Below are positions 24,826 to 41,503 of a stretch of 43,340 nt of DNA, piece by piece (the stretch's first letter is position 1; each line of letters starts with the position of its first letter). The stretch is from a virus. The stretch spans positions 1-43,340 of IMG/VR virus record IMGVR_UViG_3300033553_000096; one strand, given 5' to 3'. The notes under the pieces are model-generated. The model saw only the letters and a list, made by a program, of their open reading frames with translations, was not told where the DNA came from and made no database searches. Position numbers and translations under genes: made by a program.

Positions 24826-24954
24826 ATGAAGAAGCTGACAAGCGTCGTCTTCACCGCACTTTGGCTGTACGTGCTTATGCACGCTGTAGCCGGACTAGTG
24901 TTGATGACCCACGACGCATTCGCCGCTTTCCTCGACTGGAAGAACCGTAAGTAA
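24826..24954 (+). CDS. 42-residue membrane micro-protein
   Basis: MKKLTSVVFTALWLYVLMHA begins a peptide with one membrane helix (about residues 5-28) and a basic end (DWKNRK). Ribosome site TTGGAGAAACCAA precedes it. It is isolated by its own promoter (copy 2) and terminator (24965). The overlapping longer frame in another phase begins inside the terminator region and is rejected. Function unknown; a superinfection or membrane-modifying role is typical speculation for such peptides. Confidence 0.7.
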   Translation: MKKLTSVVFTALWLYVLMHAVAGLVLMTHDAFAAFLDWKNRK

Positions 24955-24964
24955 CACCTCAAAG

Positions 24965-24995
24965 CCTAAGGCCCCTAACACGGGCTTTAGGTTTT
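24965..24995 (+). terminator. Intrinsic terminator
   Basis: CCTAAGGCCC and GGGCTTTAGG pair across loop CTAACAC, then TTTT. The T tract runs into CGTCGCAG of promoter copy 3, so terminator and promoter are fused end to end. Confidence 0.88.
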
Positions 24996-24997
24996 CG

Positions 24998-25026
24998 TCG
25001 CAGGAATTACATGCCGTATAGTGAGA
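24998..25026 (+). promoter_or_regulatory. Iterated promoter element, copy 3
   Basis: TCGCAG, 13-bp gap GAATTACATGCCG, TATAGTGAGA. No coding frame follows; a structured RNA begins at its GAGA. Confidence 0.75.
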
Positions 25027-25128
25027 AGATAACCGAACCAGCTATTCGATAAAGTGATAGCGGTGTCCTAAACTAGGGCAGCTGATCTGGAAGACAGCTA
25101 AAAGACGGAATCTTCTTATATATTTTTT
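25023..25128 (+). ncRNA. Structured RNA 1 (three-armed, with closing stem and T tract)
   Basis: AGAAGAT (25024-25030) pairs with ATCTTCT (25110-25116), closing about 93 nt. Inside are three abutting hairpins: ACC-A-GCTAT / ATAGC-GGT (25037-25064), GTCCTA-AAC-TAGGGC (25065-25079) and AGCTG-A-TCT-GGA-AGA-CAGCT (25080-25099). TATATATTTTTTC follows, which can end transcription. No open frame of useful length is present. It has the fold outline of a cloverleaf, but no tRNA T-arm or CCA end. Confidence 0.65.
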
Positions 25129-25130
25129 CG

Positions 25131-25159
25131 TCGCAGGAATTACATGGGGTATAGTGAGA
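25131..25159 (+). promoter_or_regulatory. Iterated promoter element, copy 4
   Basis: TCGCAG, 13-bp gap GAATTACATGGGG, TATAGTGAGA, then CCCCTACCCCTCAAAGGAG leading to ATG 25184. It starts immediately after the T tract of structured RNA 1. Confidence 0.78.
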
Positions 25160-25183
25160 CCCCTACCCCTCAAAGGAGACGCA

Positions 25184-25390
25184 ATGGAAACCATCGTCAT
25201 CGAAGAGAGCCGTACCCTCCGTGTCAAGAATTTCGTCAACCGCCACAAGGTTGCCATCACAGTTGTCGCCACCAGCACCGTCTGGTACGCGCTCAACCGT
25301 ATGGCCCTGAAGCAGCACGACGAGTTCCTGAAGGAGAACGACCTCTACGACGAGTTCTATCTGCCCACCGACGAAGAAATGGGAATCTAA
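25184..25390 (+). CDS. Small single-helix membrane protein
   Basis: This 68-residue protein has a short N-terminal charged part, a membrane helix around residues 22-41 (KVAITVVATSTVWYALNRMA), then an acidic tail (DEFLKENDLYDEF...). AAAGGAG lies eight bases upstream. It forms a complete cassette with promoter copy 4 and the terminator at 25398. No known family recognised. Confidence 0.72.
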   Translation: METIVIEESRTLRVKNFVNRHKVAITVVATSTVWYALNRMALKQHDEFLKENDLYDEFYLPTDEEMGI

Positions 25391-25397
25391 ACCAAAG

Positions 25398-25428
25398 CCT
25401 AAGGCCCCTAACACGGGCTTTAGGTTTT
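25398..25428 (+). terminator. Intrinsic terminator
   Basis: Same stem and loop as 24965: CCTAAGGCCC, loop CTAACAC, GGGCTTTAGG, TTTT. Confidence 0.88.
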
Positions 25429-25450
25429 CCTAAAAACAAAAGGTGTCATA

Positions 25451-25660
25451 ATGACTATCAAAGAACACTTCGAAGAACACAAGACTATCTATATTCTAGG
25501 CACCACGATCGTCATCGCAGGTTTCACATACCTTATAGTGAGAGAGTGTCACGCAGCCTTGCTTCGCGGGGCTGATGGACTGGAGACTACTAATGCTTCG
25601 GTTACCGTGCACCCTCTTTCTTTTTTCTTGCAAGTACCCTATAGGAAGGATGCACCATGA
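25451..25660 (+). CDS. Small membrane protein with embedded promoter and RNA element
   Basis: This 69-residue protein starts MTIKEHFEEHKTIYILGTTI. One membrane helix (about 13-33) ends in LIVRE. The first 60 residues are related to the start of the gene at 26077 (HKTIYI, FTxLIVR, SVxVHP), so the two are duplicates. Promoter copy 5 (25515-25543) and a hairpin-rich RNA lie within the coding sequence; TATAGTGAGA encodes LIVR. The ribosome site (AAAAGG) is mediocre. It may be that RNA conservation alone keeps the similarity, so protein status is moderately certain. Confidence 0.55.
   Translation: MTIKEHFEEHKTIYILGTTIVIAGFTYLIVRECHAALLRGADGLETTNASVTVHPLSFFLQVPYRKDAP
25515..25543 (+). promoter_or_regulatory. 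Iterated promoter element, copy 5 (inside a gene)
   Basis: TCGCAG, 13-bp gap GTTTCACATACCT, TATAGTGAGA, located within the frame 25451-25660. Confidence 0.65.
25540..25626 (+). ncRNA. Structured RNA 2 (embedded in the 25451 gene)
   Basis: GAGAGAG (25540-25546) can pair with CTCTTTC (25614-25620, one G-U). An inner hairpin CAGCC / GGCTG (25554-25558, 25570-25574) matches in position the CAACC / GGTTG hairpin of RNA 4; the middle G-C pair is replaced by A-T, a compensatory change. A T6C tract follows directly (25621-25627). Confidence 0.5.
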
Positions 25661-25887
25661 CCACCAAGGCATTCGAACTCGCTGAAGGTTGGCCCCACAA
25701 GCACCTGAACGAATTCCCTGACGAAGTCCACATTTCTCCGCGAACCGCATATTTCACGCGAGACGGAAAAGTGATGGCGCTTCGAGTCGAAGACATGGAC
25801 GCCGAAAAGGTCCACGACGCCAACGAGCAGTTGGTTGAGGAAGGCTTCAAGCCCGAGGAGATCTTCCGCGTCCTGGATCTCGGTTAG
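25657..25887 (+). CDS. Small soluble protein, function unknown
   Basis: This 76-residue acidic protein (MTTKAFELAEGWPHKHLNEF...) has AGGAAGG nine bases upstream of the ATG. The central part ISPRTAYFTRDGKVMALRVED looks like a beta hairpin. The C-terminal half is helical (EKVHDANEQLVEEGFKPEEI). It overlaps the previous frame by four bases. No family recognised. Confidence 0.7.
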   Translation: MTTKAFELAEGWPHKHLNEFPDEVHISPRTAYFTRDGKVMALRVEDMDAEKVHDANEQLVEEGFKPEEIFRVLDLG

Positions 25888-25890
25888 ACA

Positions 25891-25919
25891 TCGCAAGAAT
25901 CACACGCCCTATGGTGAGA
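25891..25919 (+). promoter_or_regulatory. Iterated promoter element, copy 6
   Basis: TCGCAA, 13-bp gap GAATCACACGCCC, TATGGTGAGA. It drives structured RNA 3, not a gene start directly. Confidence 0.72.
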
Positions 25920-26052
25920 AGAGATCGCTTATGCGATTCCGAGACACGAATGTGTAGGTGAAAACCCTACCCGGAGTGGTAGCCATAAAAGATAAGGCTA
26001 CTTAATGAACAGTTTTCGTTGGACTGTTACCTCTTCTCGTTCTATATTTTTT
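25916..26052 (+). ncRNA. Structured RNA 3 (four-armed with 8-bp closing stem)
   Basis: GAGAAGAG (25916-25923) pairs perfectly with CTCTTCTC (26031-26038). Arms inside: ATCGC-TTAT-GCGAT (25924-25937); TCCG/CGGA (25938-25941, 25972-25975) enclosing ACAC-GAAT-GTGT; GTAGCC/GGCTAC (25979-25984, 25996-26001); AACAGT/ACTGTT (26008-26013, 26023-26028). TCTATATTTTTTC follows. The frame that could run from 26005 into the next gene lacks a ribosome site and overlaps this RNA, so I start that gene at 26077. Confidence 0.68.
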
Positions 26053-26076
26053 CTCCCTATCCGAAAGGACAAAGTG

Positions 26077-26466
26077 ATGCACGAGAAAATTGAGAAGGCC
26101 AAGCAACATCTCAAGGACCACAAGACAATCTATATCGTGGGCGGAGTCGCAGTTTTTACATGCCTTATAGTGAGAAGGGGATGTTACGCAACCTTGTCTA
26201 ACTCGGTTGATAGTTCCGGCTCCCCGCCGGTTTCCGTACATCCCTTTTCTATTTTTTCTAAGTCGGGTGACATCATTACGACGGTTCACAACGGGCATAG
26301 AGGACACCCAGGGTTCCGTACAAGGAATCTCGAAACTGGGGCCATGTTTAACACTCAAGCAGATGCGGCTTCAGCATTTGGTGTTTCAGAACGAAACCTC
26401 TCACAACATTTAAACGGTAAGTACTCGAATGCAGAAGGTTTTCACTTTGAACGACTTGCCGCCTAA
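26077..26466 (+). CDS. Membrane-anchored NUMOD1-like DNA-binding protein
   Basis: This 129-residue protein starts at ATG 26077 behind GAAAGGA. The N-terminal amphipathic segment and membrane helix (HKTIYIVGGVAVFTCLIVRR) duplicate those of the gene at 25451. Residues 75-129 (RTRNLETGAMFNTQADAASA, FGVSERNLSQHLNGKY, GFHFERL) resemble the NUMOD1 helix-turn-helix found attached to homing endonucleases, but no nuclease domain is present. Promoter copy 7 and a structured RNA lie inside the coding sequence. A DNA-binding module joined to a membrane helix is unusual; an association of DNA with the membrane is one inference. Confidence 0.68.
   Translation: MHEKIEKAKQHLKDHKTIYIVGGVAVFTCLIVRRGCYATLSNSVDSSGSPPVSVHPFSIFSKSGDIITTVHNGHRGHPGFRTRNLETGAMFNTQADAASAFGVSERNLSQHLNGKYSNAEGFHFERLAA
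26147..26175 (+). promoter_or_regulatory. Iterated promoter element, copy 7 (inside a gene)
   Basis: TCGCAG, 13-bp gap TTTTTACATGCCT, TATAGTGAGA, within the coding region 26077-26466. Confidence 0.68.
26172..26257 (+). ncRNA. Structured RNA 4 (embedded in the 26077 gene)
   Basis: An 11-bp closing stem joins 26174-26184 (GAAGGGGATGT) to 26238-26248 (ACATCCCTTTT), with G-U pairs near its base. Inside are CAACC / GGTTG (26189-26193, 26205-26209) and CCGGC-TCCCC-GCCGG (26216-26230). CTATTTTTTC follows. The same region is translated in the host gene, so the sequence is doubly constrained if both are real. Confidence 0.58.
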
Positions 26467-26469
26467 CAG

Positions 26470-26498
26470 TCGCAGTTTTTACACGCCCTATAGTGAGA
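26470..26498 (+). promoter_or_regulatory. Iterated promoter element, copy 8
   Basis: TCGCAG, 13-bp gap TTTTTACACGCCC, TATAGTGAGA. It lies four bases past the stop of the 26077 gene and initiates structured RNA 5. Confidence 0.75.
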
Positions 26499-26595
26499 GA
26501 CCACCTCTTGGAACAGCCATTGGGCAGTTCTGCAGGCCCGCCATTAGGTAGACCTGCTAAGCCCGCCGTTAGGTAGACTTACAACGTGGTCTCTC
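26495..26595 (+). ncRNA. Structured RNA 5 (10-bp closing stem, three repeated hairpins)
   Basis: GAGAGACCAC (26495-26504) pairs perfectly with GTGGTCTCTC (26586-26595). Inside are three hairpins: GAAC-A-GCC-ATTG-GGC-A-GTTC (26511-26530); GCAGG-CCC-GCC-ATTA-GGT-AGA-CCTGC (26532-26557); TAAG-CCC-GCC-GTTA-GGT-AGA-CTTA (26558-26581). The last two keep the same CCC/AGA internal loop, GCC/GGT pairs and RTTA loop while the outer stems differ completely yet still pair. This is strong evidence for a selected RNA fold. No protein frame fits the region. Confidence 0.75.
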
Positions 26596-26598
26596 TTT

Positions 26599-26672
26599 AA
26601 CAACGTATCGACCGTGGAATTTCCGTGGTCGCCGATCGTGGAATTTCCGTGATCGCCGATAGGAGCGTTGTT
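26599..26672 (+). ncRNA. Structured RNA 6 / leader with two repeated hairpins
   Basis: AACAACG (26599-26605) pairs with CGTTGTT (26666-26672), and TATCG (26606-26610) with CGATA (26657-26661). Inside, the same 13-nt apical sequence GTGGAATTTCCGT occurs twice, closed once by GACC/GGTC (26610-26630) and once by GATC/GATC (26634-26654), a compensated change. It directly follows RNA 5 and precedes the membrane gene at 26702, so it may be the second half of one RNA or a leader. Confidence 0.65.
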
Positions 26673-26701
26673 ATATTTCTGCCTAATCCAAAAGGACGGA
26701 C

Positions 26702-26857
26702 ATGCACTATCACCCGCACAGGCACTATGGAGTAGGAAAACTGTTCCTAGACTTTTTGCTTGTCTTCCTTACACAAGGAATCTGGCTAGTCTGGATCGTC
26801 ATCCGATATTTCCGATCAAACACCAATGTAGAAGGATACTACCATGAACATCGGTAA
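26702..26857 (+). CDS. 51-residue membrane protein
   Basis: MHYHPHRHYGVGKLFLDFLL begins a peptide with a histidine-rich N-terminus and one long membrane helix (LFLDFLLVFLTQGIWLVWIV), then a basic stretch (IRYFRS) and a hydrophilic tail. AAAAGGACGG lies upstream. It overlaps the start of the next gene by 14 bases, which supports translation. Function unknown. Confidence 0.72.
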   Translation: MHYHPHRHYGVGKLFLDFLLVFLTQGIWLVWIVIRYFRSNTNVEGYYHEHR

Positions 26858-27623
26858 TCTCCTGAGGCGCTTCGAGAAACTGACTATCGACAACTCCCCA
26901 ACGATCCTTACTGCTCTGGGAGTCGTGGGCACGTTGTCTACCGCATATTTGACAGGGAAGGCTTCTGTCAAAGCAGTGTTGCTTCTACAGGAAGAATACG
27001 AGCGTGTCAACCAAGATGATCAAGAGCTTCTTCCCACGAACAAAGAGGTCGTACAGCTTGTCTGGAAGCTATATTTGCCAGCAGTAGGTACTGGAGCAGT
27101 GACTATTGCTGCTATCGTTTTCGCCAATCGAGTCAGTAGCCGGCGTGCAGCAGGCATGGCAGCAGCATATTCTATCTCTGAGAAGGCTTTCTCTGAGTAC
27201 AAGGATAAGGTTGTTCAAAGGGTTGGTGAAAAGAAAGAGCAGGGGTATCGGGACGAGCTAGCCCAAGAACGTGTTGGTAAAAACCCACCCAACGATTCCT
27301 CTGTCATCATCACTGATAACGGCGAAGTTCTCTGTTATGACCACTTCACGGGTCGATATTTCAAGAGTAGCATGGAATCGATCCGACAGGCTGAGAACGA
27401 GATCAATCGCATTATCTTGAATCAGGGCTACGCTAGTGTTAGTGATCTGTATGAACTGCTAGGACTTCCGGTCACATCATTCTCTGATGAAGTTGGGTGG
27501 AACAGCGATCGTATGCTTAAAATCCAATTCTCAACAGTGATGTCGACCGACAACCGTCCGTGTCTCGCAATAGACTTTGATCTCCACCCAAACAGGAAAT
27601 TCTCTCACTTCGCCGAAGGCTAA
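26844..27623 (+). CDS. DUF6353-like phage membrane protein, copy 1
   Basis: This 259-residue protein has two hydrophobic segments, about residues 20-45 (ILTALGVVGTLSTAYLTGKAS) and 78-98 (YLPAVGTGAVTIAAIVFANR), then RRAAGMAAAYSISEKAFSEYKDK and a soluble domain with NRIILNQGYASVSDLYELLGLP. The layout matches the DUF6353 family of phage proteins. A second diverged copy lies at 29375. Both belong to the same early operon. Role unknown; membrane location is predicted. Confidence 0.78.
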   Translation: MNIGNLLRRFEKLTIDNSPTILTALGVVGTLSTAYLTGKASVKAVLLLQEEYERVNQDDQELLPTNKEVVQLVWKLYLPAVGTGAVTIAAIVFANRVSSRRAAGMAAAYSISEKAFSEYKDKVVQRVGEKKEQGYRDELAQERVGKNPPNDSSVIITDNGEVLCYDHFTGRYFKSSMESIRQAENEINRIILNQGYASVSDLYELLGLPVTSFSDEVGWNSDRMLKIQFSTVMSTDNRPCLAIDFDLHPNRKFSHFAEG

Positions 27624-40906: not shown

Positions 40907-41503
40907 GCGCGAGACTTGATAACTAAAATAGATACCCAGACTGCACAGAGAAACTTCTTTGCACAAAAAATCTTGGCAAACACAAAGGAGACCTGTGATG
41001 GAATGGAAAGAAATACCCGAGTTCCCTGGCTATTCAATTAGTGATGAGGGGCACGTCCGTAATGATGATACAGGTCGAATCCTCGTGTTGACTCAAAATC
41101 AGCACGGGGTTTCACAAGTCGGTATCATGTGTGAAGGCACTCAGTATAAGCGTGGGGTGGCGCTGTTAGTAGCTAGTGCGTTCTTACACCGCCCACGGTC
41201 TGAGGCATTCGATACCCCTATCAATCTGGATGGCGATCGTCGTAATAATCATCTGAGCAATCTAATGTGGCGTCCTCGATGGTTCGCTATCAAATACCAT
41301 AGACAGTTCCACAATGATAAGCGAGGATTTAGAGACCCTGTAGTTGATGCCCATACTATGGAATGGTTTCCCAGTTCATGGGAAGCGGCTATCAAATTTG
41401 GCTTACTTGATCGAGAGATCATGTTGGCTACGTTGAACAGAACCTATGTGTGGCCCACATACCAAGAATTCAGATTAGCGGAATAATAGTTATCGTCTCG
41501 CGC
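40907..41503. repeat. Inverted repeats flanking the NUMOD4 gene
   Basis: GCGCGAGAC-tt-GATAACTA (40907-40925) is matched in inverse orientation by TAGTTATC-GTCTCGCGC (41487-41503), differing only by the two extra T. The repeats bracket exactly one gene (40998-41486). Confidence 0.7.
40998..41486 (+). CDS. NUMOD4 / HNH-like protein, possibly nuclease-dead
   Basis: This 162-residue protein starts at ATG 40998 behind AAAGGAG. Residues 1-25 (EWKEIPEFPGYSISDEGHVRN) are a NUMOD4 domain. The centre NLDGDRRNNHLSNLMWRP has the LDGD-x-x-NN-x-x-NL-x-W pattern of HNH_3 homing endonucleases, but the usual histidine pair before it is replaced by PI, so catalysis is doubtful. The C-terminus (WEAAIKFGLLDREIMLATLN) is helical. 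It is flanked by inverted repeats and upstream direct repeats, suggesting a self-contained mobile or autoregulated unit. Confidence 0.75.
   Translation: MEWKEIPEFPGYSISDEGHVRNDDTGRILVLTQNQHGVSQVGIMCEGTQYKRGVALLVASAFLHRPRSEAFDTPINLDGDRRNNHLSNLMWRPRWFAIKYHRQFHNDKRGFRDPVVDAHTMEWFPSSWEAAIKFGLLDREIMLATLNRTYVWPTYQEFRLAE

Follow-up and report, generated by a model that had tools for sequence, protein, structure and literature searches.

A phage structured RNA with a constant frame and a repeated, variable apical module

Introduction

Protein-titrating RNAs such as CsrB and RsmY carry many copies of one hairpin motif and act as sponges. In the RNA antitoxins of type III toxin–antitoxin systems (ToxI and its relatives), copied RNA modules bind a protein several times. 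Here we describe RNA 5, a phage RNA that shares the copied modules of ToxI-type RNAs and also recalls two other groups. Like the RNA anti-CRISPRs, which mimic CRISPR repeats, it is a small phage RNA with a repeated hairpin that varies between phages, and like the OMEGA RNAs of IscB and TnpB it is a structured RNA beside a phage ORF, some of these ORFs being annotated as HNH.

RNA 5 lies behind a promoter element that has been noticed before. A 43–50 bp intergenic motif with a −10 promoter has been reported in the cluster DJ phages Vardy, Conley, Mossy and Pherobrine, where it was taken to regulate protein genes or to provide their start site (PMC9671010, PMC10868162, PMC11008172, PMC9753669). 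The portions of this literature available to us report the promoter motif and contain no description of RNA units behind it. The cluster DJ motif is the promoter element that precedes RNA 5 and many small genes.

The DNA analyzed (the window) is the whole 43,340-nt stretch of IMG/VR record IMGVR_UViG_3300033553_000096, a virus record with 141-bp identical ends. The virus infects soil bacteria, and its structural genes are related to those of Gordonia, Microbacterium, Curtobacterium and Streptomyces phages.

Results

Anatomy of RNA 5

The body of RNA 5 occupies positions 26495–26595 of the window and consists of a closing helix and three arms, the first bases pairing with the last. The features of the unit are as follows.

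26470–26498, plus strand: phage promoter-like element TCGCAGTTTTTACACGCCCTATAGTGAGA, one of 12 copies in the window, with a −10-like TATArT
26495–26504, plus strand: closing stem, 5′ side, GAGAGACCAC; pairs with 26586–26595
26510–26531, plus strand: arm 1, GGAAC-A-GCC-ATTG-GGC-A-GTTCT
26532–26557, plus strand: arm 2, GCAGG-CCC-GCC-ATTA-GGT-AGA-CCTGC
26558–26581, plus strand: arm 3, TAAG-CCC-GCC-GTTA-GGT-AGA-CTTA
26586–26595, plus strand: closing stem, 3′ side, GTGGTCTCTC; followed only by the short T stretch TTTAAC
26598–26673, plus strand: second two-arm domain in tandem after RNA 5 (direct repeat D17), closing stem TAACAACGT/GCGTTGTTA
26609–26631 and 26633–26655, plus strand: arms of the second domain, CGACC/GGTCG and CGATC/GATCG around a common GTGGAATTTCCGT; TATATTT comes after the closing stem

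The first-pass annotation, made from the sequence alone, had drawn three hairpins inside a 10-bp stem here, and the sequence reads as it stated. The predicted minimum free energy (MFE) fold of 26493–26597 is exactly that structure (−44.7 kcal/mol, z −3.7, with 0/200 shuffles as good). Arms 2 and 3 do have the identical CCC/AGA internal loops and GCC/GGT pairs it described, and arm 1 is indeed their simpler relative, with a single A·A mismatch and a GCC/GGC inner stem. What it missed is that a repeated phage promoter leads straight into RNA 5 and that the second multi-arm domain, also predicted to fold stably (MFE −33.3, z −3.9, 0/200 shuffles as good), comes after it. RNA 5 has no long or conserved ORF; the ORFs that overlap it encode only 27–42 aa.

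Homologues and covariation

Twelve homologues of RNA 5 were identified, with BLAST and with R1, a covariance model. They come from the Gordonia phages Rickmore, Pherobrine, Odesza, Avazak, Artorias, Perkunas and Petito, from Rhodococcus phage ReqiPepy6, which has one three-arm and one two-arm copy, and from the metagenomic phages L027, L155 and L167. The RNA 5 of phage Captrips is identical to the Avazak copy. The covariance-model search, which the first-pass annotation had proposed, returned independent matches with the same fold outside the training set, at L155 1490–1596 (68.9 bits), at L167 1501–1609 (72.9 bits) and, in two-arm form, at L151 8101–8182 (60.7 bits). Model R1 found no RNA 5 in the Streptomyces phages Rima, Madamato, pSs2407 and Scap1 or in Arthrobacter phage Argan. 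When viral contigs were scanned for the arm motif, Rickmore was recovered, together with chance-like matches that have no promoter context.

The stems covary, as had been proposed from the window sequence. In a 13-sequence alignment fitted to the covariance model, 97.0% of cells are paired, compared with 37–50% for slid structures; 24 of the 35 pairs show double-sided (compensatory) change, with 94 doubly changed cells, and 32 stem cells are G·U. None of 500 shuffles reaches the alignment on any of five measures. The covariation score is 0.583, against 0.172 for shuffles and at most 0.085 for slid structures, and nine of the ten pairs of the closing helix covary. A hand parse of ten homologues agrees with the fitted alignment: 282/286 cells are paired and 23/29 pair positions are compensatory, where the shuffle maxima are 224 and 17. 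Free folding of the listed homologues mostly yields the same fold.

No family in Rfam release 15 matched any part of the window at gathering thresholds, and relaxed thresholds gave nothing relevant in 24950–26720. The homologue loci yielded no Rfam match beyond a Pistol ribozyme and an unrelated tRNA, and a tRNA search of the whole window found none. The first-pass view that this is no recognized RNA class is thus borne out in Rfam. The anatomy of RNA 5 is well supported, and the evidence strongly favors a genuine structured RNA that belongs to no described class and carries a repeated module.

The promoter and the transcription unit

Twelve copies of the 31-nt promoter element lie in the window, all of them on the plus strand, and a shorter core, TCGCAnnnnnnACAyGnnnTATArTGAGA, occurs 508 times over 132 loci. 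What follows the element in the window is in some cases a structured RNA and in the others a gene that has a ribosome-binding site and a start codon. In the mRNA copies, a ribosome-binding site and an ATG follow 15–60 nt downstream. RNA 5 instead begins inside the element: its closing stem opens with the GAGA of TATAGTGAGA. We infer that transcription starts in or just before GTGAGA, so that the 5′ end would lie inside the closing stem.

RNA 5 immediately follows the promoter in 10 of the 13 sequences. In the other three, Odesza and both ReqiPepy6 copies, RNA 5 stands behind another structured RNA; such tandem RNAs behind one promoter resemble the arrangement of RNA 5 and the 26598–26673 domain. 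The 3′ ends of the homologues are mostly T-rich, with a weak T stretch in the window. In 10 of the 13 sequences the minus strand folds better than the plus strand because C·A mismatches become G·U there. No minus-strand promoter was found at any RNA 5 homologue, and this consistent promoter placement favors a plus-strand RNA despite the better folding of its complement. By eye, the promoter of the Streptomyces phages Rima, Madamato, pSs2407 and Scap1 stands before genes only.

The window protein encoded at 92–1885 was considered as a YonO-like RNA polymerase that might read the promoter. Its PHROGs label is phrog_4291, RNA-dependent RNA polymerase. Pfam gives only a weak C-terminal helix-turn-helix and a PDB search only an E 0.1 match to a phage gene 3 protein; the polymerase role stays a candidate reading, and the label looks doubtful.

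A constant frame with a variable apical module

The homologues share a frame made up of the closing stem, the outer stems and a CCN/RGA internal loop. Above the outer stem of arms 2 and 3 there is an invariant C·A mismatch (25/25 cells) and then, in all cases, a C–G pair; the third position of the internal loop is C·A, A·A or U·G. On top of this frame sits an apical module, a stem of 3–4 bp with a loop of 3–6 nt, which takes the following forms.

Window: GCC-RTTA-GGT
Rickmore: GCC-GTTTG-GGT
Pherobrine: GCT-GMTAA-AGC
Avazak: CCG-TTATA-CGG
Petito: CCCG-CCTAT-CGGG
L167: CCC-GATAA-GGG
Artorias, Perkunas and ReqiPepy6 copy 2: CCT-TTATG-AGG

Two or three arms of an RNA carry nearly the same module, and different RNAs carry widely different ones. 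Within an RNA, the similarity of the modules on arms 2 and 3 is 0.77, against 0.23 when shuffled (0/20,000 permutations as high, p < 5e-5), and that of arms 1 and 2 is 0.64 against 0.17 (p < 5e-5). The outer stems of one RNA show no significant likeness (p 0.09). The tip therefore changes in step on the different arms while the lower stems drift independently. The exceptions are arm 1 of Pherobrine and Odesza and arm 3 of L155. Loops differ even between phages of a single host strain, as seen for Avazak, Artorias and Petito on Gordonia rubripertincta NRRL B-16540. The second ReqiPepy6 copy resembles a fusion of arm 2 and arm 3, indicating that recombination between arms happens, and gene conversion between arms could keep the tips alike without selection for repeated binding.

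We favor, tentatively and with slightly less than even confidence, the reading of RNA 5 as a small, stand-alone RNA of the phage which, during infection, acts on a protein as a multivalent decoy or scaffold. The phage promoter would place the start of the RNA on the 5′ side of its closing helix, giving a transcript of about 103 nt, or up to about 185 nt with the second two-arm domain. Both ends would be locked in a long helix, and the RNA should for that reason be stable. Its three arms would display, on a constant frame, nearly the same apical stem-loop three times. In evolution this module appears to have been swapped on all arms together, which makes it most likely the specificity part; it would contact a fast-changing partner with several copies at once. 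A multivalent site is favored because each RNA keeps its modules alike whereas different RNAs have different ones. A protein partner is favored because loops this short and this variable, differing even among phages on one host strain, do not fit a conserved RNA target. That partner may be a host or rival factor, titrated by a decoy, or the protein encoded upstream. Of the multivalent sponge or decoy suggested in the first pass, then, the structured RNA and its repeated module stand on firm ground and the module pattern argues for multivalency, but sponge or decoy action is only one possible reading.

A linked upstream gene

The gene in front of RNA 5 recurs with it.

26077–26466, plus strand: small ORF of 129 aa directly upstream of RNA 5, with profile matches beside RNA units in many phages

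This ORF has a predicted N-terminal transmembrane helix and a C-terminal NUMOD-like helix-turn-helix. Eight of 11 relatives match I-HmuI_NUMOD-like (best 8e-9). In an AlphaFold model the C-terminus has a pLDDT of 88–95, and the top Foldseek hits of that model are sCTP-23166, I-HmuI and the I-TevI DNA-binding domain (E 0.07–0.6), the first two with probability 1.00 (entries I-HmuI 1u3e and 8b6e, E about 0.1). Pfam detects no nuclease domain in the family. A search of 84,980 bacterial and archaeal species genomes, by an insensitive method, gave no match to the ORF. RNA 5 lies behind this family, directly or after another RNA, in 12 of 13 cases and at two genome positions; upstream of the L027 copy there is only a short ORF remnant. 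The ORF is likely the linked partner gene of RNA 5.

This linkage raises an alternative that we consider unlikely yet the most serious one, namely that RNA 5 partners with the membrane protein encoded just upstream in the same phage. The NUMOD-like domain of that protein would bind the arms to form a membrane-tethered ribonucleoprotein, with gene and RNA a matched pair. Besides the 12/13 association, promoters of RNA units are enriched directly behind the ORF family (10/48 of end-closed RNAs against 11/585 other promoters, p 5e-7), a linkage that is inflated in part because several loci were fetched for RNA 5 or for the protein; by eye, several of those 11 other promoters also start RNAs missed by the strict filter. 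The similarity of the recognition helices correlates with that of the apical modules (Mantel r 0.34, p 0.04; with the N-terminus controlled for, partial r 0.38), but the correlation is weak, the sample small and the signal partly shared by descent. Against this reading, NUMOD-like domains are known as DNA binders, and Odesza and Pherobrine combine one module type with different protein types.

Other RNAs behind the same promoter

The promoter precedes further RNA units in the window, each closed at its ends.

25021–25119, plus strand: end-closed RNA unit behind the same promoter
25914–26040, plus strand: end-closed RNA unit behind the same promoter; by eye similar in Gordonia phage Fazel and several metagenomic phages
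26170–26248, plus strand: end-closed RNA unit inside the coding sequence of ORF 26077–26466

Significant internal direct repeats (p ≤ 0.01) occur in 16 of 52 end-closed units of the promoter class, where about 0.5 would be expected. These units carry two or three copied hairpins and include a second, unrelated family (L082 9080–9490; L158 2810–2905 and 3475–3590) with AGTG...CACT arms and an A-rich internal loop. In this second family, too, the same or nearly the same module appears twice per RNA and differs between RNAs.

Several other arrangements were observed. The 25914–26040-type RNA (GAGACACGAATGnGTAGGT...ACAGTTTTCGTTGGACTGT) appears conserved by eye at L158 4215ff, L082 9520ff, L072 12395ff, L076 3817ff, L121 4539ff and L138 4150ff (Fazel), with nothing above Rfam thresholds where scanned. 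The promoter and an end-closed RNA also lie inside small membrane protein genes, as at 26170–26248, at 25538–25620 (ORF 25451–25657), at L082 9709ff and at L155 3074ff; the sequence is dual-coding in these ORFs, with membrane-helix residues (FTYLIVR, FTCLIVRR) specified by the promoter. In cluster DJ phages the same promoter precedes tRNA-like RNAs (L136 20414–20496, L137 22916ff, L138 4059ff, L139 4299ff, L140 4003ff), and another occurs at ReqiPepy6 41206–41278 (L151 644–716), in a region that also has a full tRNA (Rfam match). The tRNA-like RNAs have a short tetraloop hairpin in place of the anticodon arm, and ARAGORN makes no call. A further RNA (CCCTTGAGTC...GAGGCCAT...TTGGAAGGTATAC), apparently conserved by eye at L146 4020–4130, L137 29522ff, L020 10168ff and L151 7890–7997, forms a tandem pair with RNA 5 in Odesza and ReqiPepy6. 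L027 10983–11096 holds three perfect tandem copies of TCTAGGTCAGCGCTATGCGAAGACCGAAA within a closing stem, and the Pistol ribozyme (RF02679, 45.5 bits) lies at L036 1089–1151, at the end of a NUMOD-type ORF and adjoining a repeated-hairpin RNA.

Discussion

Three further readings of RNA 5 were weighed. It could be mainly an elaborate, stable terminator or insulator whose arms owe their likeness to slippage or gene conversion between adjacent hairpins, the module itself being under no selection. Its closing stem, followed by a T-rich tail in most homologues, looks like an intrinsic terminator, and the arm fusion suggested by ReqiPepy6 copy 2 also fits. Yet the T stretch is weak in the window, terminators of a separate, simple family (D3) exist in these phages, and a mere terminator would have no need for covarying inner stems or for the invariant C·A and C–G of the internal loop. 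We regard this reading as quite unlikely. An antisense small RNA, whose exposed and copied loops would base-pair with a host or rival RNA, is less probable again: a loop of so few nucleotides, different in each of three phages that share a host strain, would make a poor antisense sequence. We give hardly any weight to the idea that the hairpins act as DNA, at an origin, packaging or recombination site; they are inverted repeats, and a repeat motif has been tied to rearrangements in cluster DJ (PMC11008172), but their position and orientation exactly behind the promoter, the T-rich 3′ ends and the G·U cells in the stems all speak for RNA.

The multivalent decoy or scaffold remains our preferred reading of RNA 5, its presumed partner and function being deduced from sequence comparison. 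A more general proposal, which we hold to be rather doubtful, is that RNA 5 represents a class of many-armed binders with a constant frame and a variable, repeated tip that diversifies from phage to phage; they would travel with a membrane-anchored helix-turn-helix protein and take hold of host or rival factors that themselves change. Understanding of phage small RNAs is limited to a few cases, and annotation of the many sequenced actinobacterial phages readily misses them. Strong covariation together with a tip that changes on all arms at once offers a testable handle on the binding targets of phage RNAs, and if the tip is the specificity part, RNA 5 might be a programmable protein-binding RNA. 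RNA units also explain why some long gaps behind the cluster DJ promoter motif are free of genes.

RNA 5 also shows differences from the systems that it resembles. Relative to ToxI-type RNAs, its arms are closed by one outer helix and its copies sit on different stems, and no ToxN-like toxin gene was found beside it in a comparison that took in the upstream ORF and the next large ORF (26844–27623, DUF6353), the two that flank RNA 5 and the small ORF 26702–26857. Unlike the situation with OMEGA RNAs, the neighboring ORF has only a membrane helix and a NUMOD-like domain, with no nuclease domain such as RuvC or HNH detected by Pfam, and no guide segment was seen in the RNA. The inner stem of 3–4 bp with its internal loop is unlike usual CRISPR repeats, as judged by general repeat shape, and this would set RNA 5 apart from the RNA anti-CRISPRs. 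Compared with CsrB and RsmY, RNA 5 lacks GGA loops, and its module differs from one relative to the next but is constant within each RNA.
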